Part shown: positions 1,535-44,289 of the stretch, piece after piece
How the letters are laid out: every line of letters starts with the position of its first letter
Position numbering within the stretch: the stretch's first letter is position 1
Assembly: GCA_029564595.1 (NCBI GenBank)
Contig: JAKQPS010000081.1
Span: 1-64,000, forward strand
From: a bacterium
Lineage (GTDB): Bacteria; UBP15; UBA6099
DNA: 64,000 nucleotides
Direction of reading: 5' to 3'
Made by a program: the position numbers and the translations under genes
The notes under the pieces: model-generated
Database searches by the model: none
The model's input: the letters and a program-made list of their open reading frames with translations, nothing else
What the model was told of the DNA's origin: nothing

Positions 1535-2914
1535 ATGAAAGTCGCTCTGGTCTTCCCAAGAGAAACAAACATGGCGACGGTCCCCAACTTGGGCTTGGGA
1601 TATCTGTCGGCAGTCGTTTCGAGGGAAGGCTTCGAAAACAGAATATACCATTGCGCGAAAGAAAAGCTCGATCCCGACGGTTTGGCCGCTTCGCTCCTCG
1701 AATTCAAACCCGATGTCGTCGGACTGCAGTCTTATTCCTTTTTCCACAACAAAGCAAGACGCGCGGCGGCGGTCATTAAATCCAGTTTGCCCGATACGAA
1801 AATTGTCATCGGAGGCCCTCACGCCTCCGGGCTTCCCCGCTCAGTTCTTTCAGAAGAGCCGGCCTTCGATTTCGGGTTTTCCGGAGAAGCGGAAATTGGT
1901 TTCCCCGCGCTGTTGCGGCTGCTGGCCGGAGACAGAACCGACAAACGGACTATACCGGGATTGATATGGCGAGACGGCGGAACAATCAACGCAAACCCCC
2001 AGCAGTCGGTAAAAGACCTCGACTCGCTGCCTTTTCCTGCTTGGGACAAAATGGATGTCAAAAGATATCCTCACCATGCGCATGGAGTTTTCGCTCCCGG
2101 TTTCCCCGTTGTTCCGATGGCTTATTCAAGAGGATGCAATTACAACTGCTCCTATTGCGCGGCGAGAACAATCTCCGGACCCGGCGTCAGATATCGCTCC
2201 CCTGAAAATATGATTAAGGAAATTGAATACGTCTATTGCGAGCTTGGCGTCAAAGTCGCGTCGTTTGTCGATCAGAACCTGACCGCGAACAGAGAAGCGG
2301 CGATGCGATTGTGCGACGGCCTGATAAAATCGGGCTTCAATCTCAAGTGGTACTGTCCGAACGGCGTCTATCTAGATTCATTGGACGATGAGTTGCTGGA
2401 GAAAATGAGCGCGGCTGGGTGCGAGTCCATTGCGGTGGGAATCGAATCTGCTTCTTCCGGATCCCTGAAATCTCTAGGCAGAAAAGCTCCCGACTTGAAA
2501 GATGTTCGTGAAAAGCTTCTTTTGATAAAGAAACGCGGCATCGGCGTAACAGGAAATTTCATGTTAGGTTTACCGGGAGAAGATGAGAAGGATTTCAGAA
2601 ACACATTCTCCGCCGCCCTGAAGCTGCCGCTAGACAGGGCTCAATTCGCCTTCTTTGCGCCTTTCCCCGGCACTCGCTTTTTTTTAGAGCTTTTTCCGGA
2701 TTCAACTGCCGACTGGGACGATTTCAATGTGATCGCGCCGAATTTCATTGCTGCTCCCCTGCGAAACAAAGCGCGGCTGCTGATGATTGCGGCCTTTTTG
2801 TTTTTCTACGCCCGGCCCGCCGTCTTCTGGAGAAACCTAAGAGAAATCAGGTCGGCCAGACACGCGGCCTTCGTTCTTTCAAAAATAATCAACATCGCCA
2901 AGATATTAAAGTAA
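1535..2914 (+). CDS. B12-binding-type radical SAM protein
   Basis: Radical SAM enzyme of the class with an N-terminal cobalamin-binding-type domain; substrate unknown. The start at 1535 (MKVALVFPRETN) is chosen because such proteins usually open with a beta strand of this kind; an in-frame extension to 1319 looks non-coding. Residues 1 to about 140 form the B12-type Rossmann-like part with VIGGPHASGLP and an FSGEAE segment. The radical SAM core follows, with the 4Fe-4S motif C201-x3-C205-x2-C208 after SRG and an IGIES-like segment (VGIESASSGSLKSLGRK). The C-terminal tail is basic and hydrophobic. It resembles enzymes acting on lipids, bacteriochlorophyll or secondary metabolites, but no substrate can be inferred. 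It is followed by a related gene on the same strand. Confidence 0.88.
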   Translation: MKVALVFPRETNMATVPNLGLGYLSAVVSREGFENRIYHCAKEKLDPDGLAASLLEFKPDVVGLQSYSFFHNKARRAAAVIKSSLPDTKIVIGGPHASGLPRSVLSEEPAFDFGFSGEAEIGFPALLRLLAGDRTDKRTIPGLIWRDGGTINANPQQSVKDLDSLPFPAWDKMDVKRYPHHAHGVFAPGFPVVPMAYSRGCNYNCSYCAARTISGPGVRYRSPENMIKEIEYVYCELGVKVASFVDQNLTANREAAMRLCDGLIKSGFNLKWYCPNGVYLDSLDDELLEKMSAAGCESIAVGIESASSGSLKSLGRKAPDLKDVREKLLLIKKRGIGVTGNFMLGLPGEDEKDFRNTFSAALKLPLDRAQFAFFAPFPGTRFFLELFPDSTADWDDFNVIAPNFIAAPLRNKARLLMIAAFLFFYARPAVFWRNLREIRSARHAAFVLSKIINIAKILK

Positions 2915-3034
2915 TGATTGGTTGCCTTTTTTTTCTTGGCATGGATATGTGTTTTTGCATACCGCATGTTTTGAACAAACGGCAAATTGTTCGGACTAAA
3001 TCCAAATGACATACTATTATGATTAAATCAAACA

Positions 3035-3040
3035 TATAAT
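3035..3040 (+). promoter_or_regulatory. Possible -10 element before second radical SAM gene
   Basis: TATAAT in an AT-rich stretch 58 bp before the chosen ATG at 3098. No good -35 lies 16-18 bp upstream, so this is weak support. Confidence 0.22.
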
Positions 3041-3097
3041 ATGCGCAGGCGAGGCAATGCGCCTTATAATCGGCGTCTCAAGAGGTGTTCTGCGTTG

Positions 3098-4390
3098 ATG
3101 AACTACAAATTCAGAGTTTGTCTGATGTCTCATTCAAGCGGCGAAAAACTTTCGGCTTACGGATACGGCCCCGCTAAACTTTTAGCCGCAGCCAAAGAAA
3201 AGTTGCTGGAACCTGACGTAAGAATTTCTTTTTTTGATTTGAAAGAGAACTTCGGGGACACGCAACAAGACGTTGAGATTGTCAGAAATGAAAACCCTGA
3301 TATTCTTGGATTGTCTGTTTTTCTCTGGAATTTCGATAGGGTGGAAAATATTCTTTGCAATATAAGAGAAACCCTTCCTGACACTATTATCGTATTAGGC
3401 GGTCCAAACGCGCCGGGGTACGAATTATTATCGAAACAACCATGGCTTCCCGATTTTATTGTGACCGGTGAAGGGGAAGAAGCGTTCGTGTCCATTGTGA
3501 AAAAACTTGTCGACGGAAGTCTTAGGTCCTTGGACAGTATCTCCACAAAAACGGATATGCGAAAAAAGGGTCTCTTCAAACCGCAAATATTGTCGGGCTG
3601 CGCGCAGTCTCTTGAATCATCGCCTTCTCCGTATTTAACCAATGTTTATGTCCCCCCGGGTGAATTAGTTTACATGGAGACTAGCAGAGGCTGCCCCAAC
3701 CAATGCTCATTTTGTGTCAGCGGAAACGAACGGGCGAAAATCAGGTTCTTTAGCCTAGACATAATTCGAAGAGAAATCGCATGGGCATTTGAGAATTGTA
3801 AAAAAAACATCAATTTCTGCGACGCTGCGCTTAACTATAACAACAAGCGCCTTAAAGAAATCGCGCAAGCCGCGTTAGATGTCGACCCTTCTGGAAAACT
3901 GTCTTTCACTTTCGCTCTTCACGCGGATCATCTTTCCGCGGCGCAGATAGAAATTCTATCGAGACTTAATATCGCATGCGCCACCATGGGGCTTAACTCG
4001 ACGAACCCCGCCACATTCGACACGGTCAAAAGATCAATTGATCCGGAAAAGTTCAAAGAAAAAGTCTCGTTGCTGAAAAAACTGCCTAACTCCAATATCA
4101 CAATCATGATGGGCCTTCCCGGCGACACTGTGGATGGATTTAAAAGAACTTTGGAGTACTGCGCGTCTCTGGATGTTCAAATCAACTGCTATGAATTAAG
4201 AGTTTTCCCCGGAACGCTATTTTTCGACAACGCTTCGCGATTCGACCTCAAATATGATTTATCTGACGGCCTTAAAGCGCTTTCATGCTTCAGTTACAGC
4301 AATGACGATTTGAATTCGATGCGAGAGTTGTTCGAACAATACGCGGCGTCATCGAAAAGATTCGTCCGCGGCGACCAAACGCCGCTATAA
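3098..4390 (+). CDS. B12-binding-type radical SAM protein
   Basis: Second radical SAM enzyme with an N-terminal cobalamin-binding-type region. The ATG at 3098 (MNYKFRVCLMSHSSG) is preferred over an in-frame start at 3041 because AGAGGTG lies about 10 nt upstream and the family-like strand begins here. Residues 1-140 contain VLGGPNAPGYE and VTGEGEEAF, typical of the B12-type half. The cluster ligands are C199, C203 and C206 in SRGCPNQCSFC. A later TIMMGLPGDT segment is the usual glycine-rich loop of these enzymes. It lies 183 bp after the preceding radical SAM gene, same strand, possibly co-transcribed. Substrate unknown. Confidence 0.87.
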   Translation: MNYKFRVCLMSHSSGEKLSAYGYGPAKLLAAAKEKLLEPDVRISFFDLKENFGDTQQDVEIVRNENPDILGLSVFLWNFDRVENILCNIRETLPDTIIVLGGPNAPGYELLSKQPWLPDFIVTGEGEEAFVSIVKKLVDGSLRSLDSISTKTDMRKKGLFKPQILSGCAQSLESSPSPYLTNVYVPPGELVYMETSRGCPNQCSFCVSGNERAKIRFFSLDIIRREIAWAFENCKKNINFCDAALNYNNKRLKEIAQAALDVDPSGKLSFTFALHADHLSAAQIEILSRLNIACATMGLNSTNPATFDTVKRSIDPEKFKEKVSLLKKLPNSNITIMMGLPGDTVDGFKRTLEYCASLDVQINCYELRVFPGTLFFDNASRFDLKYDLSDGLKALSCFSYSNDDLNSMRELFEQYAASSKRFVRGDQTPL

Positions 4391-4567
4391 AAAGGGGAAC
4401 TCGGCGAAAACGCAATTAAGAATCGCGGGATTTTTGTTGTTGCTTGGCAAACGCCGTAATCGCCAAGACGGAGTTTCTGTTTTTGCCGCGCAAAAGCTGT
4501 TATCGCAAATCAATCGGTGGATTGCAAAACATCCCGACGCGCCTGATTTTTATACCGATCAAAAGAA

Positions 4568-7500
4568 TCACTGGCACGGGCAACACAACACTTTGAGCGT
4601 TGCGAACTGCGGAACGCCGCTGCCGAAATACAAAGAAGCGTTGTCGTGTCTTGCCGCGGCTTCCGTTTCGTTCGTTGAGCCGTTCACTGCGGCTATCGCG
4701 CAGAAGCCAGCCGCGCATGTTGTATCTTGAGCTGTGCCAGACAATGTTGTTGTCGTAGCCGAAAAAGCGCAGTTGGTGTGCGATTTATCAAGCGAAAGAT
4801 TATATGTCCTGTTGGCTGTCAGATCTTGTGTTTGAGATGTGGTGCTGTTAACGAGTATTCCATTGCTTGTGGCCAGCGTTATCGATCTGCCGGCATGAAC
4901 CGCATCGTCCGTCGAGTTCGGCGCTCCAATATTCTCCACTCTGAAGCCGCCCATGTTTAGGGACCCGTGGAAGTATGCCACATCGCTGTTATGCATCCAG
5001 TGCAAAACTTCCGTGTCCACCCCAGCGGTTCGCCTGTATATTGAAATTGCGTCTGTGGTTGTGCTGGAAGCTGGCGTTCCGTCTCCGTTGTAGATTATGC
5101 CGCCGCCATAAGTCGTGCTCTGCCCGACAAACACCCTTCCCGTTCCTTGGCTGGCTCCGTAAAGGCTTATCGTTGCTTCCTCGGCGTCAGCTCTGCTGAT
5201 GACGAGATTGCCCGTCATTGTGTCTCCGGCTTTAAGAACATAAAGGCCGTCTGTATAGGTCGTGTTTAGAGAAATAGTTCTATTGGCGGTTAGGTCTCCT
5301 CCGCCGGAAAGTCCGGTTCCGGCGGTGATTGTCCTATCCGCGCGCACGGCATGCCCCGTTCCGGTTGCTTGTGTTCCCAAGGTTAATAGTCCGGTCACAG
5401 TTCCTGTTCCGGATGCGTCAAGATTTACCGTGTACGCAGCGCTGTATCTGAGGGCGGAGGTTCCGAGGGTGTATGTATTGGTTACCGTCGGGTTAATCTG
5501 TCTGCCTTGCAATGTGCCCGTCATCGTGTCTCCGGCTTTAAGAACATAAAGGCCATCGGTATAAGTCGTGTTTAGCGATATCGTCCTGTCAGCGGTTAGA
5601 TTTCCTCCGCCGGAAAGTCCGGTTCCGGCGGTGATTGTCCTATCCGCGCGCACGGCGCTGGTCGTGGCAGTTCCGGCTTGGCTAAGAGTAACTGTCTGTA
5701 TATATGCGGTTCTGTATCTTAGTAATGTGGTGCCAAGATCGTATGTGTGATCCGTTGTGGGATTCAACTGCTGGCCTTGCAATGTGCCCGTCATCGTGTC
5801 GCCAGCCTTAAGAACGTAGAGTCCGTCGGTATAAGTCGTGTTTAGCGAGATTGTTCTGTTGGCGGTTAGGTCTCCTCCGCCGGAAAGTCCGGTTCCGGCA
5901 GTGATTGTTCGATCCGCGCGAACCGCGTGCCCCGTTCCCGTCGCTTGTGTTCCCAAGGTTAATAGTCCGGAAACGGTTCCCGTTCCTGATGCGTTAAGGT
6001 TTACCATGTACGCCGTGCTGTATCTGAGAGCGGAGGTTCCGAGGGTGTATGTATTGGTTACCGTCGGGTTTAACTGTCTGCCCTGCAAAGTTCCCGTCAT
6101 CGTGTCTCCGGCTTTCAAAACGTAGAAGGAGTCAGTGTAACTTTTATCCAGCGCAACCGACCTCGCGGTTGAGCCATCGTATGCGGTCAGTAATATCCCT
6201 GTGCCAGCCGTTAACTGAGCGTGCGTGTGGGTCGCCGCCGCAAAATCAGCAGCGTGATATCCGTCCAACATGTCCGCGTTCAGGTTTGTCACTAATGTTG
6301 TGGATGCCACCGTCAGGGGGGCTGTGCCAGTGACTATCGTGGATATAAACCTTGTTCCCGTAATTGTGTCTGACCCTGTTATAGTTCCCGTCACTCCCAG
6401 CGTTCCGCCTATCGTCGTGTTGCCTGATATGTTCGCCGTGCCAGACACGTTAAGCGCGTATGTTCCGGGGGCGACGCCTATCCCAAGCCTGCTGTTAGCG
6501 TTGTCCCAATAGAGATTTCCGGATGATATCGTGCTGGCCGTGTTCCAGTATGTCACCCTGTCCGCCGTGCCTGAACCTGTCACCATCCCGGTGTGCGTGT
6601 GGTCTCCCCTTGCCGCCTGATCTGTCCCAACCCCGAAATCCACAGCCCATGTCTGCGCAGCCGAACCGTCGTAGTTTGAACCGGTCAATCCTGTGCCACG
6701 CGTCAATGTCGCGTGCGAGTGCGTCGAAGCGGCGAAGTCAGAAGCGTGATATCCGTCCAGCAAGTCCGCGTTCAGGTTGGTCACTAATGTTGTGGATGCC
6801 ACCGTCAGAGGGGCTGTGCCAGTGACTATCGTGGATATAAGCCTTGTGCCCTGCACCGTGCTAGACCCCGTTATCGCTCCCGTCACTCCCAGCGTTCCAC
6901 CTATCGTCGTGTTGCCTGATATGTTCGCCGTGCCGGACACGTTAAGCGCATATGTTCCGGGAGCGACCGCCACGCCCAGCCTGCTGTTAGCGTTGTCCCA
7001 ATAGAGATTTCCGGATGATATTGTGCTTGCCGCGTTCCAGTATGTAACCCTGCCAGCCGTGCCTGAACCGGTCACCATCCCGGTGTGCGTGTGGTCTCCC
7101 CTTGCCGCCTGATCTGTCCCAATCCCGAAATCCACAGCCCATGTCTGCGCAGCCGAACCGTCGTAGTTTGAACCGGTCAATCCTGTGCCACGCGTCAATG
7201 TCGCATGCGAGTGCGCCGCCGCCGCAAAGTCAGACGCGTGATATCCGTCCACCATATCGGCATTAATCGCCATCGCATTTGCCGCCATTCGCTGTCTTGG
7301 CGAATATGTGGTTCCTGCCACCGTCACTTCAAGCCAGAATTCTCCTGTGTTGAAATCAAGCGTGTCTAAATCCGGAGTCCCGCCGCTGAGCAGCGCGCTG
7401 AATAATCCGTTGCTTACAACAACAGTGGTCGCGCCGGATGTCCATACAGCCGCTCCACCTGTGTCAACGGAATAAATTCTGAACGTCATGCTGTAGCTAT

Positions 7501-7636
7501 TGTCGGCTATCGGCATTCCATTTGAGTCAGTAAGCCGCCCTTGGTAGTTAAGCGTCTTGTCGAAATTGGCCATCGCCGACTGTGTGCCCATAGCGATAAT
7601 CGCGACTGAGACTAATAGGATAAACTTTTTTGACAT
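4568..7636 (-). CDS. Large secreted repeat protein, tail-fibre/adhesin-like
   Basis: Exported protein of 1022 residues with a clear signal peptide (MSKKFILLVSVAIIAMG, cleavage near TQSAMA). The first domain (LNYQGRLTDSNGMPI, then FRIYSVDTGGAAVWTSG) is an N-terminal type seen in secreted bacterial proteins that precede fibre repeats. Two 164-residue repeats follow, containing DGYHASDFA, ATLTRGTGLTG and GDHTHTGMV, then a third partial copy, then three units starting VRADRTITAGTGLSGGG and continuing GLYVLKAGDTMTG. The tail carries several cysteines and ends CCPCQ. This resembles phage tail-fibre and surface adhesin repeats, so a surface fibre is likely. GAGG lies about 8 nt before the ATG. It is opposite in strand to its radical SAM neighbours. 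Confidence 0.8.
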   Translation of the reverse strand: MSKKFILLVSVAIIAMGTQSAMANFDKTLNYQGRLTDSNGMPIADNSYSMTFRIYSVDTGGAAVWTSGATTVVVSNGLFSALLSGGTPDLDTLDFNTGEFWLEVTVAGTTYSPRQRMAANAMAINADMVDGYHASDFAAAAHSHATLTRGTGLTGSNYDGSAAQTWAVDFGIGTDQAARGDHTHTGMVTGSGTAGRVTYWNAASTISSGNLYWDNANSRLGVAVAPGTYALNVSGTANISGNTTIGGTLGVTGAITGSSTVQGTRLISTIVTGTAPLTVASTTLVTNLNADLLDGYHASDFAASTHSHATLTRGTGLTGSNYDGSAAQTWAVDFGVGTDQAARGDHTHTGMVTGSGTADRVTYWNTASTISSGNLYWDNANSRLGIGVAPGTYALNVSGTANISGNTTIGGTLGVTGTITGSDTITGTRFISTIVTGTAPLTVASTTLVTNLNADMLDGYHAADFAAATHTHAQLTAGTGILLTAYDGSTARSVALDKSYTDSFYVLKAGDTMTGTLQGRQLNPTVTNTYTLGTSALRYSTAYMVNLNASGTGTVSGLLTLGTQATGTGHAVRADRTITAGTGLSGGGDLTANRTISLNTTYTDGLYVLKAGDTMTGTLQGQQLNPTTDHTYDLGTTLLRYRTAYIQTVTLSQAGTATTSAVRADRTITAGTGLSGGGNLTADRTISLNTTYTDGLYVLKAGDTMTGTLQGRQINPTVTNTYTLGTSALRYSAAYTVNLDASGTGTVTGLLTLGTQATGTGHAVRADRTITAGTGLSGGGDLTANRTISLNTTYTDGLYVLKAGDTMTGNLVISRADAEEATISLYGASQGTGRVFVGQSTTYGGGIIYNGDGTPASSTTTDAISIYRRTAGVDTEVLHWMHNSDVAYFHGSLNMGGFRVENIGAPNSTDDAVHAGRSITLATSNGILVNSTTSQTQDLTANRTYNLSLDKSHTNCAFSATTTTLSGTAQDTTCAAGFCAIAAVNGSTNETEAAARHDNASLYFGSGVPQFATLKVLCCPCQ
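5220..6120 (-). repeat. Three in-frame repeat units within the fibre-like gene
   Basis: The DNA block around CCGCCGGAAAGTCCGG recurs at 5301, 5607 and 5877, spaced 306 and 270 bp, both multiples of three. Each unit encodes RADRTITAGTGLSGGG followed by TTYTDGLYVLKAGDTMTG. Unit edges are approximate. High DNA identity implies recent duplication or gene conversion. Confidence 0.8.
6246..7250 (-). repeat. 492-bp in-frame repeats within the fibre-like gene
   Basis: The anchor GCGTGATATCCGTCCA/C recurs at 6252, 6744 and 7236, exactly 492 bp (164 codons) apart. The two full copies encode almost the same protein segment (DGYHASDFA to LVTNLNAD); the copy starting at 6252 is divergent and partial. The repeat is protein-coding, not a CRISPR or intergenic element. 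Confidence 0.85.
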
Positions 7637-7729
7637 AATCCAACCTCACATTGTTTCTGAGCTAGTTATTACAATTTTTATGCCTAAAAATATATCGCGA
7701 TAAATAAAAAAAGACATACTGTCATTTTT

Positions 7730-7757
7730 ATTATACCATCAAAGAGTAAAATTCAAA
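7730..7757 (-). promoter_or_regulatory. Predicted sigma70-type promoter of the fibre-like gene
   Basis: Read on the minus strand: TTTGAA (-35, 7752-7757), a 16-bp spacer and a perfect TATAAT (-10, 7730-7735), leaving a leader of about 90 nt before the ATG at 7636. Confidence 0.5.
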
Positions 7758-8315
7758 CGGATTCACCAGAATTGGCCTTTTTACCCCCCGTTTTTCGAAA
7801 TTGTTGAAAAAATGGTTTTTGTATAATATTCCATGCGTCGGGTTCAAAAAAGTCTTGATTAGAAGGATTATTATGATTTACCTCCCAATTGTTATTCGTT
7901 TTCAAGCTGTTTTATAATTATTATTTAACACCTATAAATATCAGATTCATCAATCCCCAATGATGCCATAGCATAAATAGATTTTGTGCATGATAGTGCG
8001 TTAAACTGCATTTTTTTTCATGCGCTTTGGGTTATTACTAAAAACGCAAAACAGAATGAACACCGTTCGCTTACTTTCATAGACAACTCAAAGCTTTCAA
8101 GCGGCGCAAAAGACGTGGAATGGAACGCAAGAGAGCTATTTGCGGTTGCCTTGGATAGTTTTTTCTCATAAAAAACTCGATTAGTTTCCTATTGCATGGA
8201 AAACAAGTTGGAGACGCGCCGCGAAAAACCGCGCGGCTGGATAACATCTTCTACTGGTTTTTGAAGTTTTTTCTGAACCTCATTTATATTTTTAAGCTCA
8301 AACGATGAATCCGCA
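7758..8315 (+). other. AT-rich intergenic region, no supported gene
   Basis: This spacer between divergent genes holds no convincing gene. A 61-codon frame at 7986-8171 has no ribosome binding site and no recognised similarity. A plus-strand TATAAT at 7822-7827 has only a poor -35 and nothing recognisable downstream. An inverted repeat lies around 8219-8238 (GCCGCG/CGCGGC) without a T tract. Confidence 0.4.
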
Positions 8316-8344
8316 TTGAAAAAAAGGCCTGCAGATGTGATAAT
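8316..8344 (+). promoter_or_regulatory. Predicted extended -10 promoter for the radical SAM gene at 8416
   Basis: TTGAAA (8316-8321), a 17-bp spacer and GATAAT (8339-8344) preceded by an extended -10 TG at 8336-8337. The predicted leader is about 65 nt. Confidence 0.55.
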
Positions 8345-8415
8345 TTCTCAATCAACTAGTCTCGCAATGCCAGATGACACCGCTGACGGAGTTATTGTGA
8401 GAGCAAGAGGTTTCA

Positions 8416-9351
8416 ATGGAAATATTTGAAGAAAAAGCCGGAGAAAAGACAAAGGCGTTGCTGCGGCTCGGCTACACTTGCAACAACAACTGTTTCTTCT
8501 GTCACAGCTATAGAACCGGCGAGGAAAAAACCGACTTGGAGACAGAAGAATGCGAGAGAAGAATCGCTCTTGCCGCTAAAGCAGGAGCTGGAACTGTGGT
8601 TTTTTCAGGAGGAGAGCCAACAATACGCAAAGACATCCTCCATTTGTGCCGCTACGCAAAATCTATAGGGCTTAAATCAGGGATTATAACGAACGGAAGA
8701 ATGCTAGGTTACAAGGGTTTCTGCGAAAAACTACATCTGGCAGGTTTAAATTACGCGCTTGTGTCGCTTCACGGCGACAATGAAGAAACACACGATCTAC
8801 ATGTAGGGACATCGGCTTTCAGTCAAACGCTTGCCGGATTGACTGAGATAGCGCGCCTTCCGGTATCGCTTGTTGTGAACACTGTGCTGACGAAGCTGAA
8901 TTCGGACAGACTTGAAAATATGCTTGCTGTCATTTCAAAGTTCGCTCCATTGAGATGGAAGATATCGTTGCCCGAGCCGCGAGGAGCCATTCTCTCGCGC
9001 ATGAATCTGACATTAAACCCGAACGATGCGGCTAGCTCGGTCAGCAAGCTTCTATCTTCAAAAAAGCCTCCATCTGGAGTAAGTCTTGGGTTTGACGGCT
9101 TCACACCGTGCCTTCTTGAGGATTATTTTGCTCTTAACGATGATTTCTTCACTCACGGTTTTTCCATGGTTTGGTATGCGGACGAAGATAGATTTTATAC
9201 TCCTGACAGGGGAAATCGCAACCTGCGCCAGACTTGTCAGGAGTGCGCATATTATGACGTTTGCCCGGGGATTTATGCGGAGTATTTATTTCATTATCCA
9301 GACTTAAAGTTGATCCCTAAGGTAGATCATAATCGAATGTCCGATGAATAG
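8416..9351 (+). CDS. Radical SAM protein, MoaA/PqqE-like with CX2CX5C tail
   Basis: Radical SAM enzyme of 311 residues, substrate unknown. Cluster ligands are C22, C26 and C29 (TCNNNCFFC); the SAM-binding GGEP is at residues 65-68. It has the SLHG...ETHD...SAF..TLAGL signature shared with the radical SAM proteins at 16866, 17835 (C-terminal half), 26244 and 28608. The C-terminal CQECAYYDVC (CX2CX5C) resembles part of a twitch/SPASM auxiliary cluster site but lacks the full set of cysteines. AAGAGG lies about 6 nt before the ATG and a good promoter lies at 8316. It stands alone between the fibre-like gene and the cytochrome lipoprotein. Confidence 0.88.
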   Translation: MEIFEEKAGEKTKALLRLGYTCNNNCFFCHSYRTGEEKTDLETEECERRIALAAKAGAGTVVFSGGEPTIRKDILHLCRYAKSIGLKSGIITNGRMLGYKGFCEKLHLAGLNYALVSLHGDNEETHDLHVGTSAFSQTLAGLTEIARLPVSLVVNTVLTKLNSDRLENMLAVISKFAPLRWKISLPEPRGAILSRMNLTLNPNDAASSVSKLLSSKKPPSGVSLGFDGFTPCLLEDYFALNDDFFTHGFSMVWYADEDRFYTPDRGNRNLRQTCQECAYYDVCPGIYAEYLFHYPDLKLIPKVDHNRMSDE

Positions 9352-9427
9352 CATTTCTCATGTTTGCAATAGTGGGGACTTGCGAGCTTCTTTGTCGGGG
9401 CTGCTCATTTCAATAACATAAATTTAT

Positions 9428-9444
9428 ATGGTCGCATCGACCAT
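9428..9444. repeat. Perfect 7-bp inverted repeat upstream of cytochrome promoter
   Basis: ATGGTCG/CGACCAT separated by 3 nt, centred about 35 bp upstream of the predicted -35 of the next gene. The position suits an activator or repressor site, or a weak hairpin ending the preceding gene. There is no T tract. Confidence 0.3.
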
Positions 9445-9470
9445 TCCGGCAAATTCGATTAACTTCATGA

Positions 9471-9499
9471 TTCACATTTCTCAAAGCCGCGTATATAAT
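9471..9499 (+). promoter_or_regulatory. Predicted sigma70-type promoter of the cytochrome lipoprotein
   Basis: TTCACA (9471-9476), a 17-bp spacer and a perfect TATAAT (9494-9499). The expected leader to the ATG at 9548 is about 40 nt. Confidence 0.6.
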
Positions 9500-9547
9500 C
9501 AATTATGCTGTCATAATTCATGATAAAGGGAAGCGGGCCTTATATTG

Positions 9548-14573: not shown

Positions 14574-14617
14574 GCTTGTAGTCAAATCTGAAGAGTCCCG
14601 ATCGCGCCGCTGAAAAC

Positions 14618-16207: not shown

Positions 16208-16227
16208 GCGCGCTCCACCAACTCAAA

Positions 16228-16851: not shown

Positions 16852-16865
16852 AATCAAAACCGCCG

Positions 16866-17795: not shown

Positions 17796-17834
17796 GTTGC
17801 TTTTTCAGTCTCCGGCAGTTCGCGCGCATAATCT

Positions 17835-20081: not shown

Positions 20082-20117
20082 TATTTCGAAAACGCTCCCC
20101 CGCCGCTGGACTCACAT

Positions 20118-26180: not shown

Positions 26181-26243
26181 CGGAAACTCATTTTTTTGAG
26201 ATTCTTCTCTTTGTGTGCCTTAGAGCCTTTAATAATTATAATT

Positions 26244-28067: not shown

Positions 28068-28077
28068 AAGGCGCGAA

Positions 28078-30626: not shown

Positions 30627-30680
30627 TATAACTATTCCGCAGCAAGCGTCATCCGCTGAAAACGCGAGGCCTCTCCATCG

Positions 30681-32585: not shown

Positions 32586-32689
32586 ATGCTTTTCACGAAA
32601 ACAATTTTCTTGGCGCGAGTCTCTTCCACTGTTATCTGGCTGTGTCCGCGCTCGAATGCCCGGATATGAAGCATATTAGTCGTGCCTCG

Positions 32690-34600: not shown

Positions 34601-34833
34601 ATCACTCACAATAACTCATTACATGACGATTTTCAATGAGCCTGTCGTCGCTAACCGCGCTTCACGTTCTTGCCTCGCCCGCCTTTTCTTTTCTTCTCGC
34701 TTTTTCAATAATCTCAACTTAATAACAAAAATACTCTAAATTTGATATTTCAGACCGTATTTTTTTTGTCGGCATTGCTTTCAACCCTTTGAACTGCCGC
34801 TTCGCAATCAATTCGCAATAGCGCGAATGCCGC

Positions 34834-37044: not shown

Positions 37045-37062
37045 CCGAGCCTCAAATCCTTC

Positions 37063-37284
37063 TCATCGAAAATAACCATCGACCCCGAAGGTCTCATTAA
37101 CGGATTCAAAACCCCTCGCGCGACAATTGCCCGCGCCTGCCAAGTTCCGGGACTCCGTCTCGGCGATATGCAAAGCGAGCTTGCCAATCATTAGAACGTT
37201 CATCGTCGTGATAGCCCCGGACGGATTCGGCCAATCGTCAAAATGCCCGTTAGCGTTGATAGAAACTATTTTCGGTTGTTTCAT
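37063..37284 (-). CDS. Small protein of unknown function, coupled to U32-methyltransferase gene
   Basis: Predicted 73-residue product (MKQPKIVSINANGHFDDWP...). Its ATG overlaps the TGA of the upstream U32-methyltransferase gene in an ATGA, and its stop lies 18 nt before the next gene, so it fits the operon spacing exactly. The sequence matches no family I recognise and lacks a leader/core layout typical of a modified peptide, though NAN, GAGN and the glycine-rich end are noted. It may be a small partner protein or the remnant of a longer gene. Confidence 0.4.
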   Translation of the reverse strand: MKQPKIVSINANGHFDDWPNPSGAITTMNVLMIGKLALHIAETESRNLAGAGNCRARGFESVNETFGVDGYFR

Positions 37285-38660
37285 TTTCTCTTCATTGCCG
37301 CGAACATCATGCTCAATCGCGTGCGTCTCTCCGTTTTATTTTCCTCGCAATGGAACAACCCTTCAGCGGCTTTCTCAATATCGCCGACGGAAACCGACCA
37401 TTCGGGAATCTGTCCTTCGACATATAAAGCCGGAAGCGGGGACTCCTTTCCCGTCCACGCGCATATAATCAAAATTCCTCCCGGCTTGATAATCCTTCCC
37501 GCCGCCTCGAAATATTCCCTTCTTCGCCAAGGAGGGATGGAATGGAAACACCCGTAATCGACCGCCATGTCGAAGAATCGGTCATATCCGTCGAGATTAA
37601 GAATGTCGCCGCAAATAAAAGTTCCCGCATTTTTTTTATCGGCCCTCTCCAACGCCTTCGGGGCTATGTCAATACCATAATAGTTTAAGCCTGCGAACAA
37701 CTCGGCGTGTCTTCCTTCTCCGCATCCAATATCTAACGCGTCGCGAATTCCGCCCGCCGCCGACTTAACGGCTCTCGCAACCATTCCGGCGAGCGTTTCA
37801 TCAGGCTCTTCGCCCCACAACTCCCTCTGTTCTTTGACCTCGAACAGCCTGTTCCAATCAAGGAACAGCGGCTCGCCGCGCGTGAAGTTGTGATTCGGAA
37901 ACACAGGCATATACACCAGCCTGTCTATCAAGCCGTCGGGCGAGCCGACGGTCATCCGGTCGTTTGTGTAGTATTGCGCGTTGCCTTGCATGAATATTTC
38001 CGCCCCTAGGTTGTGAATCGCGATGTTCTCTCCAGAGCAACTGACAGGACAATAGTCTATAGTCCTGAACTTGAAATTGCCCTCCGCCATATTTGCGAAG
38101 TGGCATTTTCTCGTCGCCGCGCAACACACATGCGGATAATACAACGAGTATTTCATTTTGAAATCGCGGTCGAGACGCAATCCCTGAAAAACGTTGTCCA
38201 ACTCCGACCTTCCCGCTCCCAGAGCTGAAAGCAATTCAAGATATTCACTCTGAAGATTGTTTTCCGTGAAATAGTCGGAGAACGGCTCTCCTTTGAAGCC
38301 GAGCCTAGGATCTTTTTTCGCCTTGCATAGCAACCTTCCATGAACAGGGGTTTTACCGGCTGCTCTGATCGCTTGCAACAAGCCCCAGTCGTTAAACACA
38401 ACCTCGGCGCTTCCGGGGAGCGCTTCTATCAGGCGTTCGCATTTTTCAATGCATCTCTCGGAACATGGAGGGGTCACAAGCGTGAATCCCGCTCCGGCTC
38501 TTCCGGCAAACTCAAGCGTATTCTCAAGCTGCTTTTCTGTCGGAAGCAGAAACTCGCAGAACTCGTTGCCGAAATAAATCCTATCGAATCTGGAATTGTG
38601 AAAATACTTCAAGTCGGCGGGATCGGAAATATAAAAGGCGTGCTCCATCCGGGTTGTCAT
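37281..38660 (-). CDS. U32-like (UbiV-type) protein fused to methyltransferase
   Basis: Residues 1 to about 270 look like a peptidase-U32-family TIM barrel of the UbiV type: IYFGNEFCEFLLP (C35), LVTPPC, NDWGLL, then C179/C180, C186, C204 and C208 (HVCCAATRKC, YCPVSCSG), the expected Fe-S ligands. In E. coli, UbiV carries four cysteines in a comparable order and works with UbiU in oxygen-independent hydroxylation. Residues 300-459 form a class I methyltransferase (ALDIGCGEGRHAELF, YYGIDIAPKALERA, DMAVDYGCFHSIP, IIKPGGILIICAW). It overlaps the UbiU-like gene by 4 bp at its start and the small gene by 4 bp at its end. Hydroxylation followed by O-methylation of one substrate is inferred. Confidence 0.76.
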   Translation of the reverse strand: MTTRMEHAFYISDPADLKYFHNSRFDRIYFGNEFCEFLLPTEKQLENTLEFAGRAGAGFTLVTPPCSERCIEKCERLIEALPGSAEVVFNDWGLLQAIRAAGKTPVHGRLLCKAKKDPRLGFKGEPFSDYFTENNLQSEYLELLSALGAGRSELDNVFQGLRLDRDFKMKYSLYYPHVCCAATRKCHFANMAEGNFKFRTIDYCPVSCSGENIAIHNLGAEIFMQGNAQYYTNDRMTVGSPDGLIDRLVYMPVFPNHNFTRGEPLFLDWNRLFEVKEQRELWGEEPDETLAGMVARAVKSAAGGIRDALDIGCGEGRHAELFAGLNYYGIDIAPKALERADKKNAGTFICGDILNLDGYDRFFDMAVDYGCFHSIPPWRRREYFEAAGRIIKPGGILIICAWTGKESPLPALYVEGQIPEWSVSVGDIEKAAEGLFHCEENKTERRTRLSMMFAAMKRK

Positions 38661-39682
38661 CGATTGCCGCCGCCTTCCCCTGAAACATCTTCCGACAAGC
38701 TGTCATAAGACAGCGAAGATGTCCATTTGACCACTCCCTGAACCATCTGCGGTCGCGCAGGCTCTCCGGTGACATTTGAGTCAGGCTTTCGCCCGACGCT
38801 GTAATAACACTTCCTTCCGCATCGCTCTCCGAACACTTCCTTGTGCAACTCGGCGCATTTCCTCCCGTATTCCTCCTCGGTTTCGCTGATATCAATGAAT
38901 CCAACCGCTCCTTTTAGAAAACTCACATCCTTTAATATCATGTCCCCTGCGAGACCTCTGCCCGCTATCTTCAATACTAGGTCTTCTCTATTTCTTAACG
39001 AAAAAAGCGCGCACACTCCGCATGAATCAAGCGAATACCCGAATCCGGCCGGCAAATGATTGTACAATATCGCTTGCCTGCACATATTCGGCGATTCCTC
39101 TCCGGGGAAATGGCAATACGAGCATACTCCTTCCAAATAGGGGCATTCTTCATTAATCACTATCAACTCATGGCCACAGTCCTTCTGGCTGCTTGCGATT
39201 TTCGCGATTTCACCCGGCAAAAGCTGTCTGGGAAGAACTATCCTGTCCGCGCCCAGACCTCTGTAAAATGCCGCCGATTTGGCGTTCATAACATGGGCGG
39301 TCGAGCTTAGAACGATAAAAAGCCCGCTGTCAGCTTTTTTTAGTTTGATCATTAGGTTTATATCGGAGACTATGAAGCCGGAAACCCCGCCTGCCGACAA
39401 CTTCACAACATCGTCAATAAGAGCGTCGTGCCAATTTTCCGGATAGAAAAGCTCGTTTATCGCCACAAAAGACTTGGCGCCGAGTTTCACTGTTTTCTCG
39501 CAAACCGCCAGAACTGACTCGATAGAATCAAAATTGGTCAATTCTCCGAATCGGCGACTAAATAAATCTTCGTTGGAAATATCAGTGTTCCTATAACCCA
39601 TATAAAACTCGTCTGCGCCCGCTTCCGCAAAATCATCCAGCAACCCAACCGTTTTTTGATTCAATGGACAATGTATTATCAT
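38657..39682 (-). CDS. U32-family (UbiU/YhbU-like) Fe-S protein
   Basis: Protein of 341 residues in the peptidase U32 family. It opens with the barrel strands IIHCPLNQKTV and ADEFYMGYR, followed by GVSGFIVSDINLMIKLK and LGADRIVLPRQLLPGEI, the RxxxxxEI segment characteristic of U32. Candidate 4Fe-4S ligands are C180, C187 and C201 (EECPYLEGVC, NMCRQ), with C221 or C224 completing the set. Known relatives are UbiU (ubiquinone hydroxylation), RlhA and TrhP (RNA hydroxylation) and true proteases; the intact cysteines favour the Fe-S hydroxylation group. The stop overlaps the ATG of the UbiV-like fusion gene (ATGA), so the pair is translationally coupled, as UbiU/UbiV pairs commonly are. Confidence 0.8.
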   Translation of the reverse strand: MIIHCPLNQKTVGLLDDFAEAGADEFYMGYRNTDISNEDLFSRRFGELTNFDSIESVLAVCEKTVKLGAKSFVAINELFYPENWHDALIDDVVKLSAGGVSGFIVSDINLMIKLKKADSGLFIVLSSTAHVMNAKSAAFYRGLGADRIVLPRQLLPGEIAKIASSQKDCGHELIVINEECPYLEGVCSYCHFPGEESPNMCRQAILYNHLPAGFGYSLDSCGVCALFSLRNREDLVLKIAGRGLAGDMILKDVSFLKGAVGFIDISETEEEYGRKCAELHKEVFGERCGRKCYYSVGRKPDSNVTGEPARPQMVQGVVKWTSSLSYDSLSEDVSGEGGGNR

Positions 39683-39806
39683 CTCTATCCGTCACCCTCT
39701 ACCGCTGGAAAAAACTCCGACTGAGATCCGGCCATTAATCCGTCCTTCAAAGTTCATTTTATCAGAAGCGCAATTTGAATGAAATAAAAGCCCGGCTCAA
39801 TCCCCA

Positions 39807-41189
39807 TCAGTCTTCGAGTCGCGCCGCCTTTCGGCGGGCTCTGCCTCGACTGCTTACGGGCATAAACAGAAAAGAACGGACAGCTTCTGCGAAGGAAACA
39901 AGACTTCGTTTAAGGCTTAAGTTCCTCGCCAGATAAAAAACTTTTCGCGGCCTGAGATAGAACAAGGCGTAAGCAAACCTTGTGACAAGCCTTGTGGTCA
40001 AAGAGACATCCCCGACCGCATGATCGATTTCGCAGAGCTTTGATCCCGGTCTTGGGTCGAACACATTAAAAGAAGCGTAGCCGGGATCGAGTCTGACCGC
40101 CGCAACCGCGGTTAAAAACGCGCTTTTTGCGCTTTCTCCGGGCAACCCCAGTATAAAATGAGACCCCGGAATTATCCCTTTTTTTCTCATCAAATTGAAT
40201 GCTTCCCGCGCCCGTTCAATGTCCACTTCTTTGCCCATGCTTCTGCCTATATCCTTGTCGGAAGTTTCGATGCCTATCTGGAGCAACCGGCATCCTGATT
40301 CCGAGTACATCTCTATCCTCCGCTCGTCAAGCAAATCCAGTCTAGTGTAAGCGTGCCATGTAATGCTTGTTGCCTCGTTGGCGAGCGCGCGGCACAGCCT
40401 CTCAACCCGCGCGGAATCAACTCCAAAAGTCATGTCCTTGAAAAAAATATGACGAGCGCCCCGCGAATACAGACTTGCGATTTCTTCCATCATATTTTCA
40501 TGATTCCTGAAAGAAAAACCCGGCGATAATGCCCCGCTATTGCAAAACGCGCAGAAATACGGACACCCGAACGACGCCAAAACAGTGTTGAACGACTCGG
40601 GTACCAAGGGCATGTTGTAATTCTTTTTTTCAAACGCCTCGTGATCCGGAACAGGGTATTCGAATTCCTTCATCTTGCGGGTCCGAACAACCTCGATTTT
40701 TCCATTTCTTCTGAACGCCGACGAATCCGCGCTTTCGAAATCGCCTGTCGCCAACCGGACAATATCGCTTGAAGTAAAATCAAAAAGAATCGCGTCTATG
40801 AAATCGCGCTTATCGAGGAATTCCTCTGGGTTTTCCAGACATGCGTCGCCGGAAACGACTATTGTCGCTCCGGTTTTTTCCTTGATCTCTTTAAGAATAA
40901 TTGCGTCGGTTTCAATTGAGAGAGATCCCACAAGACAGAAAACCGCGGTCGGCAAATAATCAGTTGCTGTTCTGACGACTGATTTATGCGACGCCCTTTG
41001 CGCCACCGCGTCCAGAACCGCCACTGTGCCGCTCTTGCCCAGAATTCCACTTTGAACGAGAAGGTCTATCGGATGCCAAAGATATCCTGCCTTGGAGACA
41101 GTGCAACAGTAATAATCTCTTAGTATCTTTCGATAATAAGGAGGGTTCAGAAGAAAAAAACGATCCCTCGCGCTGCGAACAATCTCCAT
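39807..41189 (-). CDS. B12-binding-type radical SAM protein
   Basis: Radical SAM enzyme of 460 residues. The N-terminal half is a cobalamin-binding-type region (LLNPPYYRKILRDYY, ATIVVSGDACLENPEEFL); the core holds C209, C213 and C216 (FGCPYFCAFC), IFFKDMTFGVDSARV, LLQIGIETSDKDIGRSMGKE and GSHFILGLPGES. The tail is very basic (SSRGRARRKAARLED). A strong GGAGG lies about 5 nt before the ATG. It lies 124 bp upstream of the U32 pair on the same strand, so hydroxylation and radical methylation of a common product is conceivable. Substrate unknown. Confidence 0.87.
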   Translation of the reverse strand: MEIVRSARDRFFLLNPPYYRKILRDYYCCTVSKAGYLWHPIDLLVQSGILGKSGTVAVLDAVAQRASHKSVVRTATDYLPTAVFCLVGSLSIETDAIILKEIKEKTGATIVVSGDACLENPEEFLDKRDFIDAILFDFTSSDIVRLATGDFESADSSAFRRNGKIEVVRTRKMKEFEYPVPDHEAFEKKNYNMPLVPESFNTVLASFGCPYFCAFCNSGALSPGFSFRNHENMMEEIASLYSRGARHIFFKDMTFGVDSARVERLCRALANEATSITWHAYTRLDLLDERRIEMYSESGCRLLQIGIETSDKDIGRSMGKEVDIERAREAFNLMRKKGIIPGSHFILGLPGESAKSAFLTAVAAVRLDPGYASFNVFDPRPGSKLCEIDHAVGDVSLTTRLVTRFAYALFYLRPRKVFYLARNLSLKRSLVSFAEAVRSFLFMPVSSRGRARRKAARLED

Positions 41190-41300
41190 AAACCTCCGCT
41201 TGCGAGATCATGCTAAACAAAACGCCGAATACCGCGGCTATAGCCGGCAACCGCAGTGTTATTCGGATATCAAGCCCTATGAAATACCGCAAAGCGCGCG

Positions 41301-42776
41301 TCAGAAAAACAATTCCATCCTTGTGGCTCCGAAATACGGCTCTTCAGGCAACCCCGGCCTCGTCCTTCTCTTTCCTGTCGCTTCGCAGAAAAGTCCGTCT
41401 TCAAGAAAAAACAAATCTTCGAGCGGAACGCTTCCCTCGATAAACCTGCCTCCTACGGCAAATTTATAATAAGTGTGAACATCCGATTTCTCCTTGCCGT
41501 CTTTATCTTTTGCGCAAACACGAATGGCGGAAGCCGCGCTGGTAAAGTCATTGCTTATGATGTTTATCAAGTTGTCGCAATTGTGATCATCCTCGTCGCC
41601 ATAGAACAATAGACGGAACTCTCCTCTTGGCACGCCTAAGCGGGGCGGTTCCACGGAAAGCGGAATCCTCATTAACATATTCAAATCAACCCGCCAGTAT
41701 AAAAACTGGGAATCCCTCGCGAAAAAAACTGCGGTTATGCCATCCTCCTCCGGACTAACCGGAGATCTCCGGTAACAAGGCGATATTCCAACCCAATCAT
41801 CGAGACGTCCGTCAGTCTCTATCACAGCTTTATGAACCGTGCATTTCTTGATTGCTCTTTCAGACAACGCCCATTTTCCATTCTTCTTGTTCAGAACGTT
41901 GATTGATATCCAACTTGAGTTGACATACCGTTCCTCGTCGTTCGGCTCTCCCATCGCTATTGTTTCGTAAGCCGTCGCCTCGGCTCTGTCTTTCTCCACC
42001 GTTATCGAAGCGATTTTCACTTGAAGCTTTATATTGCCGAAAAGCTTGTGAAGCTCGTTAATTTCTCGAACTACATCGTCGACTTCATTTAGCGTCGCGT
42101 TGCCTATGGATATCTTAGCCGGCTTGAAAATCATCTCTCTGATTTTCGCTCCGTCATTGGCGTTAAACGCCTTGATGAAGTCTTCCATTGCTGTTTTCGC
42201 TTCCTCTGTAATGCCAACGCTATCTCCGGGAGAGCCGTATGTCGCCGTTAGGTCCGTCAAAGCAATATTGAAATCCGGGACATCAATCATGTAATCCATC
42301 GCGCCGACCGCGGTTGCGCCTTCCGGATAACCTATCCCGTCCGCCAAAGCCCGCAACTCCTTCGTCATGAATTCGAACTCCGCTGACGTGTAATTCGCGG
42401 GATCAGCGGATATAATCTTCCATGTCAACGCTTCCGTTACCGGGTCAATATCGTTCGTCTTCCCGAAAAGAATCGTCCTAATCGGCCCTCCGTCCGTCTC
42501 CGCGCTTAATATTCGCGTTTGTTTTCCCTCTGGTAATTCAATCTTATACACGCCTTTGTCGTCTGTTTTGCCCTCGGCCAGCGACGCCCCTTCGATTGAC
42601 ACAGCTTTCACTACAACCCCGGACGCCGGCTTCAGCGCCACTTTTTCAGAAGCTTTATCATCTTTTTTCGCCGGAACCGTCCACACCGTTCCTGAAATCT
42701 CCATTCCCGACAGCGTACCGGCAAAAATAACCGCGTAAGTGAATAGAATCGACAGAATAAAAAACGTCTTTTTCAT
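41301..42776 (-). CDS. Secreted protein with carboxypeptidase-regulatory-like and CBM9-like parts
   Basis: Exported protein of 491 residues with signal peptide MKKTFFILSILFTYAVIFAG. Residues 28-110 look like a carboxypeptidase-regulatory-type beta domain (GVVVKAVSIEGASLAEGKT, DDKGVYKIELPEG). The middle (AMEDFIKAFNANDGAKIREM, then KIASITVEKDRAEATAYET, WALSERAIKKC) fits an NTF2/SnoaL-like fold. The end (IETDGRLDDWVGISPCYR, FLYWRVDLN) resembles a CBM9-like domain that binds sugar or acts as a sensor. GAGAGG lies just before the ATG. A promoter with a flanking inverted repeat lies at 42816-42868. Role unknown; possibly an envelope glycan-binding protein. Confidence 0.72.
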   Translation of the reverse strand: MKKTFFILSILFTYAVIFAGTLSGMEISGTVWTVPAKKDDKASEKVALKPASGVVVKAVSIEGASLAEGKTDDKGVYKIELPEGKQTRILSAETDGGPIRTILFGKTNDIDPVTEALTWKIISADPANYTSAEFEFMTKELRALADGIGYPEGATAVGAMDYMIDVPDFNIALTDLTATYGSPGDSVGITEEAKTAMEDFIKAFNANDGAKIREMIFKPAKISIGNATLNEVDDVVREINELHKLFGNIKLQVKIASITVEKDRAEATAYETIAMGEPNDEERYVNSSWISINVLNKKNGKWALSERAIKKCTVHKAVIETDGRLDDWVGISPCYRRSPVSPEEDGITAVFFARDSQFLYWRVDLNMLMRIPLSVEPPRLGVPRGEFRLLFYGDEDDHNCDNLINIISNDFTSAASAIRVCAKDKDGKEKSDVHTYYKFAVGGRFIEGSVPLEDLFFLEDGLFCEATGKRRTRPGLPEEPYFGATRMELFF

Positions 42777-42815
42777 GCCTCTCGCTCCTCAAAAATGCAA
42801 CTCACAACCTTACGC

Positions 42816-42868
42816 ATATCACATGTTTTGTATATTATAACACTCCCAGACGGCAATACATGTGATAT
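42816..42868 (-). promoter_or_regulatory. Extended -10 promoter bracketed by an 11-bp inverted repeat
   Basis: ATATCACATGT (42816-42826) and its exact complement ACATGTGATAT (42858-42868) flank 31 bp that contain TG-T-TATAAT on the minus strand (-10 at 42834-42839). The layout suits a repressor or looping regulator of the secreted protein gene at 41301-42776. Confidence 0.5.
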
Positions 42869-42972
42869 TTGCACATTTCTAATTGAGTATCGGATATTGC
42901 CGAGCAGGAAGCTAGGCGAAGCCCAGCATGGCTCCGGTCTATGCTAAGGAAGACGCATTACGCTCCGTCGAA

Positions 42973-44289
42973 TCACTCCGCGCCGGACCTCAAGAGGTTT
43001 CGCGGTTTCGAAGTGAATATCAACTGTTTGATTGTCTTGCTTAACTCAAAAAACTTCAGCGCATCGGCAAACTTAATCCCGAACTCCACTCCTGAGGAAG
43101 AAAAACTAATAAAACCTCTATCTATCAGCATCTCGAAATTTTCCCTTGCAAATCGTTCGGCGTCGCAGCCAAAAACCGATTCGAAGTATTGAAAAGGCAA
43201 GCAGGCTCCATCTCTTAAATGCAAAAGAAGCATATCCAGCGCTTCTTCAAAAATGTCTTTCCGATATCCGACATACTCTCGAGCCGCAAAACCTTGCGCG
43301 GCGCCGGAGCGGCCCAGATTTTTATAAAAAACCTTTCCGAACAAGTTCGAGCATGAGTTCCGCCCAAGTCCTAACACCGCAACGGGTCTCCTGCTGTGAA
43401 GCTCGTACCTATTGTCTTCGTTATAAAGATTATTGGAATTCCCTGCTATCAGACACGTCGTCAGCTTAGACGATTCCTTCAAAATTTCGAGGCTAGATCC
43501 CGCCAATCCTGATGTAAAGATTTCCTTTATCCTGTCCCAATCTCCAAGAGATTCTCCACTCATAGCCATCTCGCTGGGCGAATACTGTTGTCCCAGATTC
43601 TGAAGACAGTACAAAGTAACAGTGTCAGAGCCTAATCCCGACGCCTTCTCAACCGTCTCTAAGAACGTCTTATCGGTCTCTCCGGGTAGAGGCGCCAATA
43701 GGTCGATATTCACCACGCTCGCGCCGCATTCTTTTGCGAAAGCAATAAGTTCCGCCGTGCGCATCAGGTCGGCTTCTTTCCTTCCCGCAACCTCCAATAC
43801 CTTTGGCGTCAGAGACTGAACCCCTAAACTAATCCGTTTAATGCCATGCTCAACCACGGTCTTTATTTTTCCTGAAGTCGCCGAGTTCGGATTCATCTCG
43901 CATGTCGAAACAGCTCTTCCTGATAGTTTGAAACAGCTTCGAACCTCAGACACCACATCGTAGAAATCGTCCTCTTCGTAAATAGTCGGCGTTCCCCCTC
44001 CGAAATATAAGCCATCAAACTCAAGCCCTTCGACAGCTTCGGCAGTCTCGAGCGCCTCGTTAAGCAAGAATTTCTTTTCCTCGGTCAAGGCCCCTTCTTT
44101 CAGAAGCGGCTCCGATTCGTACATACAGAATTTACACTTGCTTGAGCAATATGGAGTATGAACATATACGTAACTTCTTACATGCTTTTTGTCCGGGAAT
44201 TCCTCCCGACAAAATTCTTTCCACATGCCTAGGATTTCGTTCTTTTGCAATGGATCGAACCGCAATGCCACGCTCCTTATCGAAATCAT
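42973..44289 (-). CDS. HemN-like radical SAM protein
   Basis: Radical SAM enzyme of 438 residues in the coproporphyrinogen dehydrogenase-like (HemN/HemW/ChuW) group. Landmarks are YVHTPYCSSKCKFC (C48, C52, C55), LYFGGGTPTIYEEDDF, CEMNPNSAT (counterpart of the E-x-N-P segment), ISLGVQSLTPKVLEVAGR, and NIDLLAPLPGETDKTFLE. The C-terminal third (FEEALDMLLLHLRDG, MLIDRGFISFS) resembles the HemN-C helical domain. Unlike HemN the cluster motif lacks the extra cysteine after CxxxCxxC. Members of the group decarboxylate, methylate or open porphyrins; with the c-type cytochrome in the cluster, haem chemistry is possible, but the substrate is not shown by sequence. It is the first gene of the minus-strand series. 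Confidence 0.85.
   Translation of the reverse strand: MISIRSVALRFDPLQKNEILGMWKEFCREEFPDKKHVRSYVYVHTPYCSSKCKFCMYESEPLLKEGALTEEKKFLLNEALETAEAVEGLEFDGLYFGGGTPTIYEEDDFYDVVSEVRSCFKLSGRAVSTCEMNPNSATSGKIKTVVEHGIKRISLGVQSLTPKVLEVAGRKEADLMRTAELIAFAKECGASVVNIDLLAPLPGETDKTFLETVEKASGLGSDTVTLYCLQNLGQQYSPSEMAMSGESLGDWDRIKEIFTSGLAGSSLEILKESSKLTTCLIAGNSNNLYNEDNRYELHSRRPVAVLGLGRNSCSNLFGKVFYKNLGRSGAAQGFAAREYVGYRKDIFEEALDMLLLHLRDGACLPFQYFESVFGCDAERFARENFEMLIDRGFISFSSSGVEFGIKFADALKFFELSKTIKQLIFTSKPRNLLRSGAE

Follow-up and report, generated by a model that had tools for sequence, protein, structure and literature searches.

The window analysed here comprises 64,000 nucleotides of contig JAKQPS010000081.1 (assembly GCA_029564595.1, lineage UBP15; UBA6099), and its positions 1535 to 44289 hold a cluster of radical S-adenosylmethionine (SAM) enzymes and partner genes, considered below together with the core of a His-Xaa-Ser (Hxs) system located on another contig of the same genome, C99. 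The twelve radical SAM proteins, termed rS1 to rS12, all score above the Pfam Radical_SAM cut-off, and all fourteen CxxxCxxC motifs claimed for them in an earlier sequence-only reading are found, which bears out its count of fourteen domains within 43 kb. The two double proteins (17835-20081 and 28521-30626) each have two Radical_SAM-matched stretches. The 4.40-Mb genome contains 91 Radical_SAM matches, and the fourteen in 43 kb compare with 0.9 expected, about 16 times the genome average (Poisson P ~1e-12, a value somewhat overstated because the same genome has other radical SAM clusters). These further clusters (L005 to L013, on contigs C24, C57, C86, C104, C112, C131, C139 and C199) contain many enzymes of the B12-binding kind.

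The radical SAM enzymes of the window fall into long and short forms. The long enzymes rS1 (1319-2914, likely start 1535), rS2 (3041-4390, likely start 3098), rS5 (14618-16207) and rS8 (20204-21694), all on the forward strand and assigned with Pfam, are of the B12-binding kind, the first three being described as B12-binding plus radical SAM and rS8 as B12-type; the N-terminal half of rS7 (17835-20081, reverse strand) and rS11 (39807-41189, reverse) belong here less clearly. The short enzymes have the HxsC4 and HxsC models of NCBIfam as their nearest. HxsC4 is the best model for rS3 (8416-9351, forward; 110.7 bits against a cut-off of 500), for the C-terminal half of rS7 and for the double enzyme rS10 (28521-30626, likely GTG start 28608, forward; also matched by Pfam), and HxsC is best for rS9 (26196-28067, likely start 26244, forward; 86.6 bits against 267.9), which is fused to a methyltransferase (Methyltransf_23). 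The remaining proteins are rS4 (13515-14573, forward) and rS6 (16866-17795, reverse), both Pfam matches, and the HemN-like rS12 (42973-44289, reverse), related to HemN-like genes in the Hxs clusters of two other genomes (G003 and G031). No radical SAM protein of the window scores above the cut-off of any named NCBIfam family. The starts proposed in the sequence-only reading (1535, 3098, 26244 and GTG 28608) look better than those of the longest open reading frames, and the last gives rS10 a 4-nucleotide overlap with the gene preceding it.

That preceding gene encodes a DUF483-like protein (28045-28611, forward), just under the Pfam cut-off, with LGYPxCC and HIPCxxxC motifs. Both motifs are common to the window protein and its counterpart in the Hxs core at approximately 24% identity, the E-value of this comparison being inflated because the two alignments have rows in common. 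Structure prediction for the protein from two sequences gives a mean pLDDT of 41 and a pTM of 0.36. Three methyltransferases are present, namely the class I SAM methyltransferase MT1 (16228-16944, reverse; Methyltransf_11, 8.8e-17), MT2 with an extra N-terminal domain (37281-38660, reverse; Methyltransf_25, 1.3e-15) and the C-terminal part of rS9. Four multi-pass GT-C-like membrane proteins are encoded on the reverse strand: GTC0 (23320-24918; 10 hydrophobic segments, weak PMT and DUF6056 matches), GTC1 with a Cys-rich C-terminal part (30681-32585), its paralogue GTC2 (32690-34609) and GTC3 (34834-37044). An SGNH/GDSL-like hydrolase with an N-terminal membrane segment (21728-23323, reverse) matches Pfam Lipase_GDSL_2 below the cut-off (1e-6), and an exported lipoprotein (9545-13531, forward) has three CxxCH haem motifs. 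These partners agree with those listed before except for the U32 proteins, given there in the plural; Pfam supports a single one, UbiU-like (38657-39682, reverse; Peptidase_U32, 3.8e-17; NCBIfam UbiU, 55.4 bits against a cut-off of 440). An A24 prepilin-peptidase-like membrane protein (24947-26077, reverse) lies marginally under its Pfam cut-off (Peptidase_A24, 1.3e-5, 26.1 bits against 26.5), and the TD..T.KV.N and GD motifs are retained in it and its homologues. An exported bMG3/SnoaL-like protein (41301-42776, reverse) and a fibre-like exported protein with repeats (4568-7636, reverse; weak match to an NCBIfam mosaic adhesive trimer N-domain) complete the set. A sequence search for solved structures of the DUF483, SGNH, A24 and GTC0 proteins found none.

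The left edge of the window cuts an IS66-family element, the 3' part of which occupies positions 1-1259 of the forward strand, with the transposase open reading frame at 25-1251 (Pfam DDE_Tnp_IS66, 4.2e-43, and zf-IS66) and the right inverted repeat extending to 1259. C99:1-141 carries the 5' end of the element and, on the minus strand, the missing transposase start (MDSDEARKPTYEELEQRVIYLE). The inverted repeat GCTAAATGCTTAC is present at both ends of the element, where an 8-bp target duplication adjoins it, reading CAAGATTT in the window and, in reverse complement, AAATCTTG on C99. When the flanks are joined without the IS66, an unbroken alignment is obtained to two congeners, G003 (81%) and G001 (79%), and in G003, separately, window position 1260 continues directly into C99 position 135. 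Given the split transposase, the matching inverted repeats, the exact 8-bp duplication and the empty site in G003 and G001, C99 and the window contig are taken as neighbours, although no read spans the IS66. The sequence most likely formed one contiguous stretch until the element inserted between rS1 and the Hxs core.

The core locus on C99 (L004, positions 515 to 16170, gene content assigned by homology) begins with an exported protein, a paralogue of the bMG3-like protein of the window, followed by an HxsD-like gene, HxsB and three proteins of approximately 270 residues built of His repeats. Next come four HxsC-like enzymes, in two pairs that flank a 344-residue DUF483-like protein, and the locus closes with a broken HemN-like gene and a B12-type enzyme. 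HxsB scores 475.8 bits against a cut-off of 370 (TIGR03978). The HxsD-like protein reaches 30.4 bits against 50 (TIGR03976; 3.6e-7), covering nearly the full model at the expected gene position. Neither HxsB nor HxsD is matched among the window proteins scanned with NCBIfam, both lying on C99. HxsC or HxsC4 is the best-matching model for each of the four HxsC-like enzymes, which together with rS3, rS7, rS9 and rS10 score 79-131 bits to models with cut-offs of 267.9 (HxsC, TIGR03977) and 500 (HxsC4, NF038332). Window and core together hold 21 radical SAM domains in approximately 60 kb. The HemN-like gene of C99 (L004:13648-14537) is split into two frames here and intact at 472 residues in G003, possibly through decay or an assembly error.

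The three tandem His-repeat proteins carry 24-25 His-Xaa-Ser/Asn/Thr motifs each. A full-length alignment of eleven such proteins from three genomes shows a common leader with the conserved motif LP..D.L.YF..EEAKI[ST], a hydrophobic stretch at its end and two invariant glycines, followed by an invariant His ladder with mostly 6- or 9-residue spacing; QGKHxA stands at the centre and an invariant Trp at the C terminus. Within the repeats of the eleven, Ser or Asn occupies the second position after His in 284 of 314 cases (90%) against a background of 29%. Proteins encoded in G004 and on contig C205 of G005 carry the same leader ahead of a simple (HGS)n tail with a terminal Trp, and the one from G004 scores above the HxsA4 cut-off of NCBIfam (71.5 against 55). 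This score and the homology of the His-repeat leader with that of compact HxsA4-type (HGS)n proteins of the same order (E 1.2e-7) identify the His-repeat proteins, as far as sequence kinship goes, as expanded relatives of HxsA4. They occur in 6 of the 386 genomes surveyed, all of this order, G004 counting only by a weak short-form match and G006 of the same order having none. Six-frame and leader-motif searches find no His-repeat reading frame or leader inside the window, so the absence of a precursor reported previously is correct for the window, which ends at the contig edge; it does not extend to the locus as a whole, since the three C99 proteins, which that first reading could not see, are likely the substrates of the system. 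In two genomes, three-gene His-repeat arrays stand right behind a fibre gene (L071, G003:C6:96000-109812; L070, G002:C13:32000-51000), with no radical SAM genes in the stretch fetched and with a LepA-like gene near the G003 array.

The linkage between window genes and Hxs genes recurs in other genomes. In G003 (L063), rS1, rS2 and the fibre gene directly adjoin the Hxs core; the same junction is present in G001, where the order of the window genes is kept over most of the window, and both genomes have copies of rS1 that are 95% identical to it. Relatives of the fibre gene adjoin His-repeat or HxsA4 genes at five loci (L063, L070, L071, L132 and L137). G005, of another family, has a central Hxs core on contig C37 (L068, L131), with an rS2 orthologue adjoining HxsD on one side (L131:5552-6889; 38% over 434 residues, tree support 100/100) and GTC1-like, GTC3-like, two bMG3-like, GTC2-like and rS11-like genes on the other, the GTC3 homologue at 43% and the rS11 orthologue at 48% identity. 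A compact locus on its contig C205 contains a fibre gene, HxsB, an HxsA4-type gene, the HxsC-like HrS1 and HrS2 and an A24 homologue that aligns with the window A24 protein over its full length (hhalign E 6e-13). A comparison of GTC0 with the GT-C protein of the compact locus gave a weak match (probability 25%) and is not used as evidence. The central window block of SGNH-GTC0-A24 and rS9-DUF483-rS10 is kept on C6 of G005, where DUF483 is fused to rS10; the rS7-rS8 pair is also kept (L067), and two rS5 homologues (68% and 59%) adjoin an rS4 homologue (L066). Identities between the G005 blocks and the window range from 32 to 68%.

Outside the order, a single gene run in G031 combines HxsB (395.9 bits), an HxsD-like gene, two YPxCC proteins, HrS2-like, HemN-like and B12-type enzymes, a methyltransferase and a 58-residue reading frame (L128:16880-17053) whose His-rich C terminus ends HQSHASSSKHSSNTNH; the latter is a candidate HxsA-like precursor and has no NCBIfam match. 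In G034, likewise outside the order, HxsB and HxsC stand as a pair with no accessory genes beside them. HxsB exceeds its cut-off in 7 of the 386 genomes, among them all four with a PF04467 match, of which three are close relatives. Apart from the congener, a contig search with rS10 turned up just one weak match, in Clostridia. The sequence-only reading had asked whether homologues would be scattered in unrelated contexts; blocks keep their order in congeners and in another family of the same order, and the gene kinds recur outside the order, so the set is no accident of exchange.

A tree of 68 radical SAM domains places the short window enzymes interspersed with those of the Hxs cores, with support that is moderate in places. 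The second domain of rS10 groups with HrS1 (98/83), rS6 groups with HrS2, and most of the remaining short radical SAM proteins drawn from this genome fall in another group.

Taken together, the window probably represents the accessory arm of a protein-modification system of expanded Hxs type, a degree of confidence that attaches to membership in such a system only. Several observations weigh against this assignment. The HxsC-like matches fall well under their equivalog cut-offs, and a C99 His-repeat protein tested with NCBIfam matched no HxsA model. In G003 (92% complete), the Hxs core is accompanied by rS1 and rS2, but the DUF483-rS10 and rS11-rS12 blocks are missing, the compact Hxs locus of G004 is without these two blocks as well, and G034 has only HxsB and HxsC. 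Parts of the window set lie on non-Hxs contigs in G005 (C6, C10, C139, C146 and C63), the haem lipoprotein gene is not linked to Hxs in that genome, and DUF483 occurs without Hxs, for example in Methanocaldococcus jannaschii. In G002 (67% complete) the right block and His-repeat genes are present, and HxsB was looked for and not found. The gene content of G003, G004 and G034 indicates that the accessory genes are dispensable for Hxs, and the set is accordingly best described, from its distribution, as an elaboration that Hxs as such does not need. The earlier proposal of one multistep system thus holds in that linked blocks recur, but not as an indivisible unit, since G003 and G002 have some blocks only and G005 spreads them over several contigs; the best reading of these gene sets is modular rather than one fixed pathway.

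The sequence-only reading favoured modification of an envelope lipid or glycan, which is not upheld given the candidate protein substrates next door on C99 and the Hxs-type neighbourhood. A variant of it, in which the window is a separate glycan or lipid pathway merely beside Hxs and the GT-C, SGNH, U32 and B12 enzymes take a lipid-linked glycan as substrate, is unlikely. The four GT-C-like proteins, the SGNH hydrolase, the low-scoring similarity of the B12-type enzymes to lipid-modifying families such as HpnJ and the separation of blocks from Hxs on several G005 contigs would fit it; the orthologues that flank Hxs genes or share their operons in other genomes, the intermixing of radical SAM domains from both halves in the tree and the presence of DUF483, bMG3-like and HemN-like families in both halves do not. 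The ladderane and hopanoid lipid radical SAM models (TIGR04072, TIGR03471 and TIGR04367) are all missed at their cut-offs, the best score being 115.9 bits for HpnJ against 577.6.

A hot spot of unrelated enzymes gathered by exchange in a radical-SAM-rich genome is still less probable. The 91 Radical_SAM matches, the several other clusters, the patchy presence among congeners and the nearby IS66 and dispersed repeats are what such a hot spot would produce, but it does not account for gene order kept over most of the window in G001 and in the G005 blocks, or for Hxs linkage in separate families and outside the order. That the short radical SAM enzymes act like AhbC, AhbD or NirJ and rS12 acts like HemN, all serving the trihaem lipoprotein in a haem or tetrapyrrole pathway, is barely credible: the AhbD, NirJ and HemZ/HemW matches from which it draws, alongside the three CxxCH motifs, lie far under cut-off (rS3 to AhbD, 97.9 against 500), four proteins match HxsC4 or HxsC best, and in G005 the haem gene (L065, 58% identity) stands apart from radical SAM genes.

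For the preferred Hxs-type system, we infer the enzymatic steps and their order from the observed gene content, contiguity, conserved neighbourhoods, family relationships and motif statistics. In the cytoplasm, the leader of each His-repeat protein would attract HxsB together with the HxsC-like enzymes, which would act on the H-x-[Ser/Asn] units, most likely joining each His to the second residue after it; such crosslinks are the favoured guess at the chemistry, held tentatively. B12-dependent radical SAM enzymes and ordinary methyltransferases may then add further groups such as methyl. A24 peptidases cleave after Gly or Ala right before a hydrophobic stretch, and from this preference the A24-like protein would be expected to cut the leader at its hydrophobic stretch during export. 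Outside the cell, the GT-C and SGNH proteins could decorate the product or trim it, perhaps while it is attached to the fibre encoded nearby. The repeated adjacency of the fibre gene to the substrate genes suggests that the product is displayed on the surface. A bolder picture, which is improbable, has a surface fibre coated with the three His-repeat proteins, heavily crosslinked and bearing more than 70 modified His-X-Ser/Asn units in all, cleaved by the A24 enzyme and glycosylated on export, the regular His stripes binding metal or haem and working with the trihaem lipoprotein; if true, it would constitute a new kind of extracellular polymer built post-translationally.

To the right of the cluster, the window contains alpha-2-macroglobulin-like, PbpC-like and MltG-like genes at 45427-54541, which separate rS12 from a ModE-like regulator. 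The regulator directly follows rS12 in G002 (L062), so this block was either inserted here or lost there. A dispersed non-coding repeat of approximately 175 nucleotides lies at 44509-44684, of which the genome has no fewer than 40 copies and three congeners have many, with 69-80% identity to the copy in the window; its consensus folds strongly and has no Rfam match.

The Hxs genes received their names, on sequence grounds, more than ten years ago, and to our knowledge no function or chemistry has been demonstrated for the system. In the literature searched, Hxs features only through its naming and passing mentions; the kind of system is known, and its present form appears to be undescribed in that literature. 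Hxs thereby grows from a handful of genes to an assembly of approximately 60 kb with some 21 radical SAM domains. The candidate substrates are unusually clear, with an invariant His ladder, a conserved leader and an invariant C-terminal Trp, and the accessory families travelling with Hxs can now be named (DUF483, HemN-like, B12-type and A24), which together make Hxs function testable. The locus also illustrates that a contig break at an insertion element can conceal the substrate of a cluster.

Among known systems, the SynChlorMet cassette (ScmE/ScmF) and other multi-maturase cassettes likewise bring several related radical SAM/SPASM-like enzymes together, but the window enzymes match ScmE/ScmF only below the 400-bit cut-off. 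Triceptide precursors are short with one or few motifs, whereas the substrates here are long with many, and C99 HxsB is only sub-threshold to the triceptide enzyme models. The link from residue i to i+2 proposed here would resemble the three-residue cyclophanes of triceptides with Ser or Asn as the second partner: the radical SAM/SPASM enzymes XncB, OscB, MscB and HaaB join residues i and i+2, with links that include Phe-Ser and Trp-Asn, and the title of a work cited in the same paper reports His-containing triceptide motifs (PMC11002830). The closest likeness is to the Hxs system itself (HxsA/B/C/D and NCBIfam HxsA4/HxsC4), with which the locus shares HxsB, an HxsD-like protein, HxsC-like enzymes and His-Xaa-Ser-type repeat substrates with a common leader. 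It differs from this two-enzyme system in its multitude of radical SAM domains, in having three tandem substrates with H-x-[SN] units at 6- or 9-residue spacing in place of the short (HGS)n tail of HxsA4, and in its added DUF483, HemN-like, B12-type, methyltransferase, A24, GT-C, SGNH and U32 proteins.

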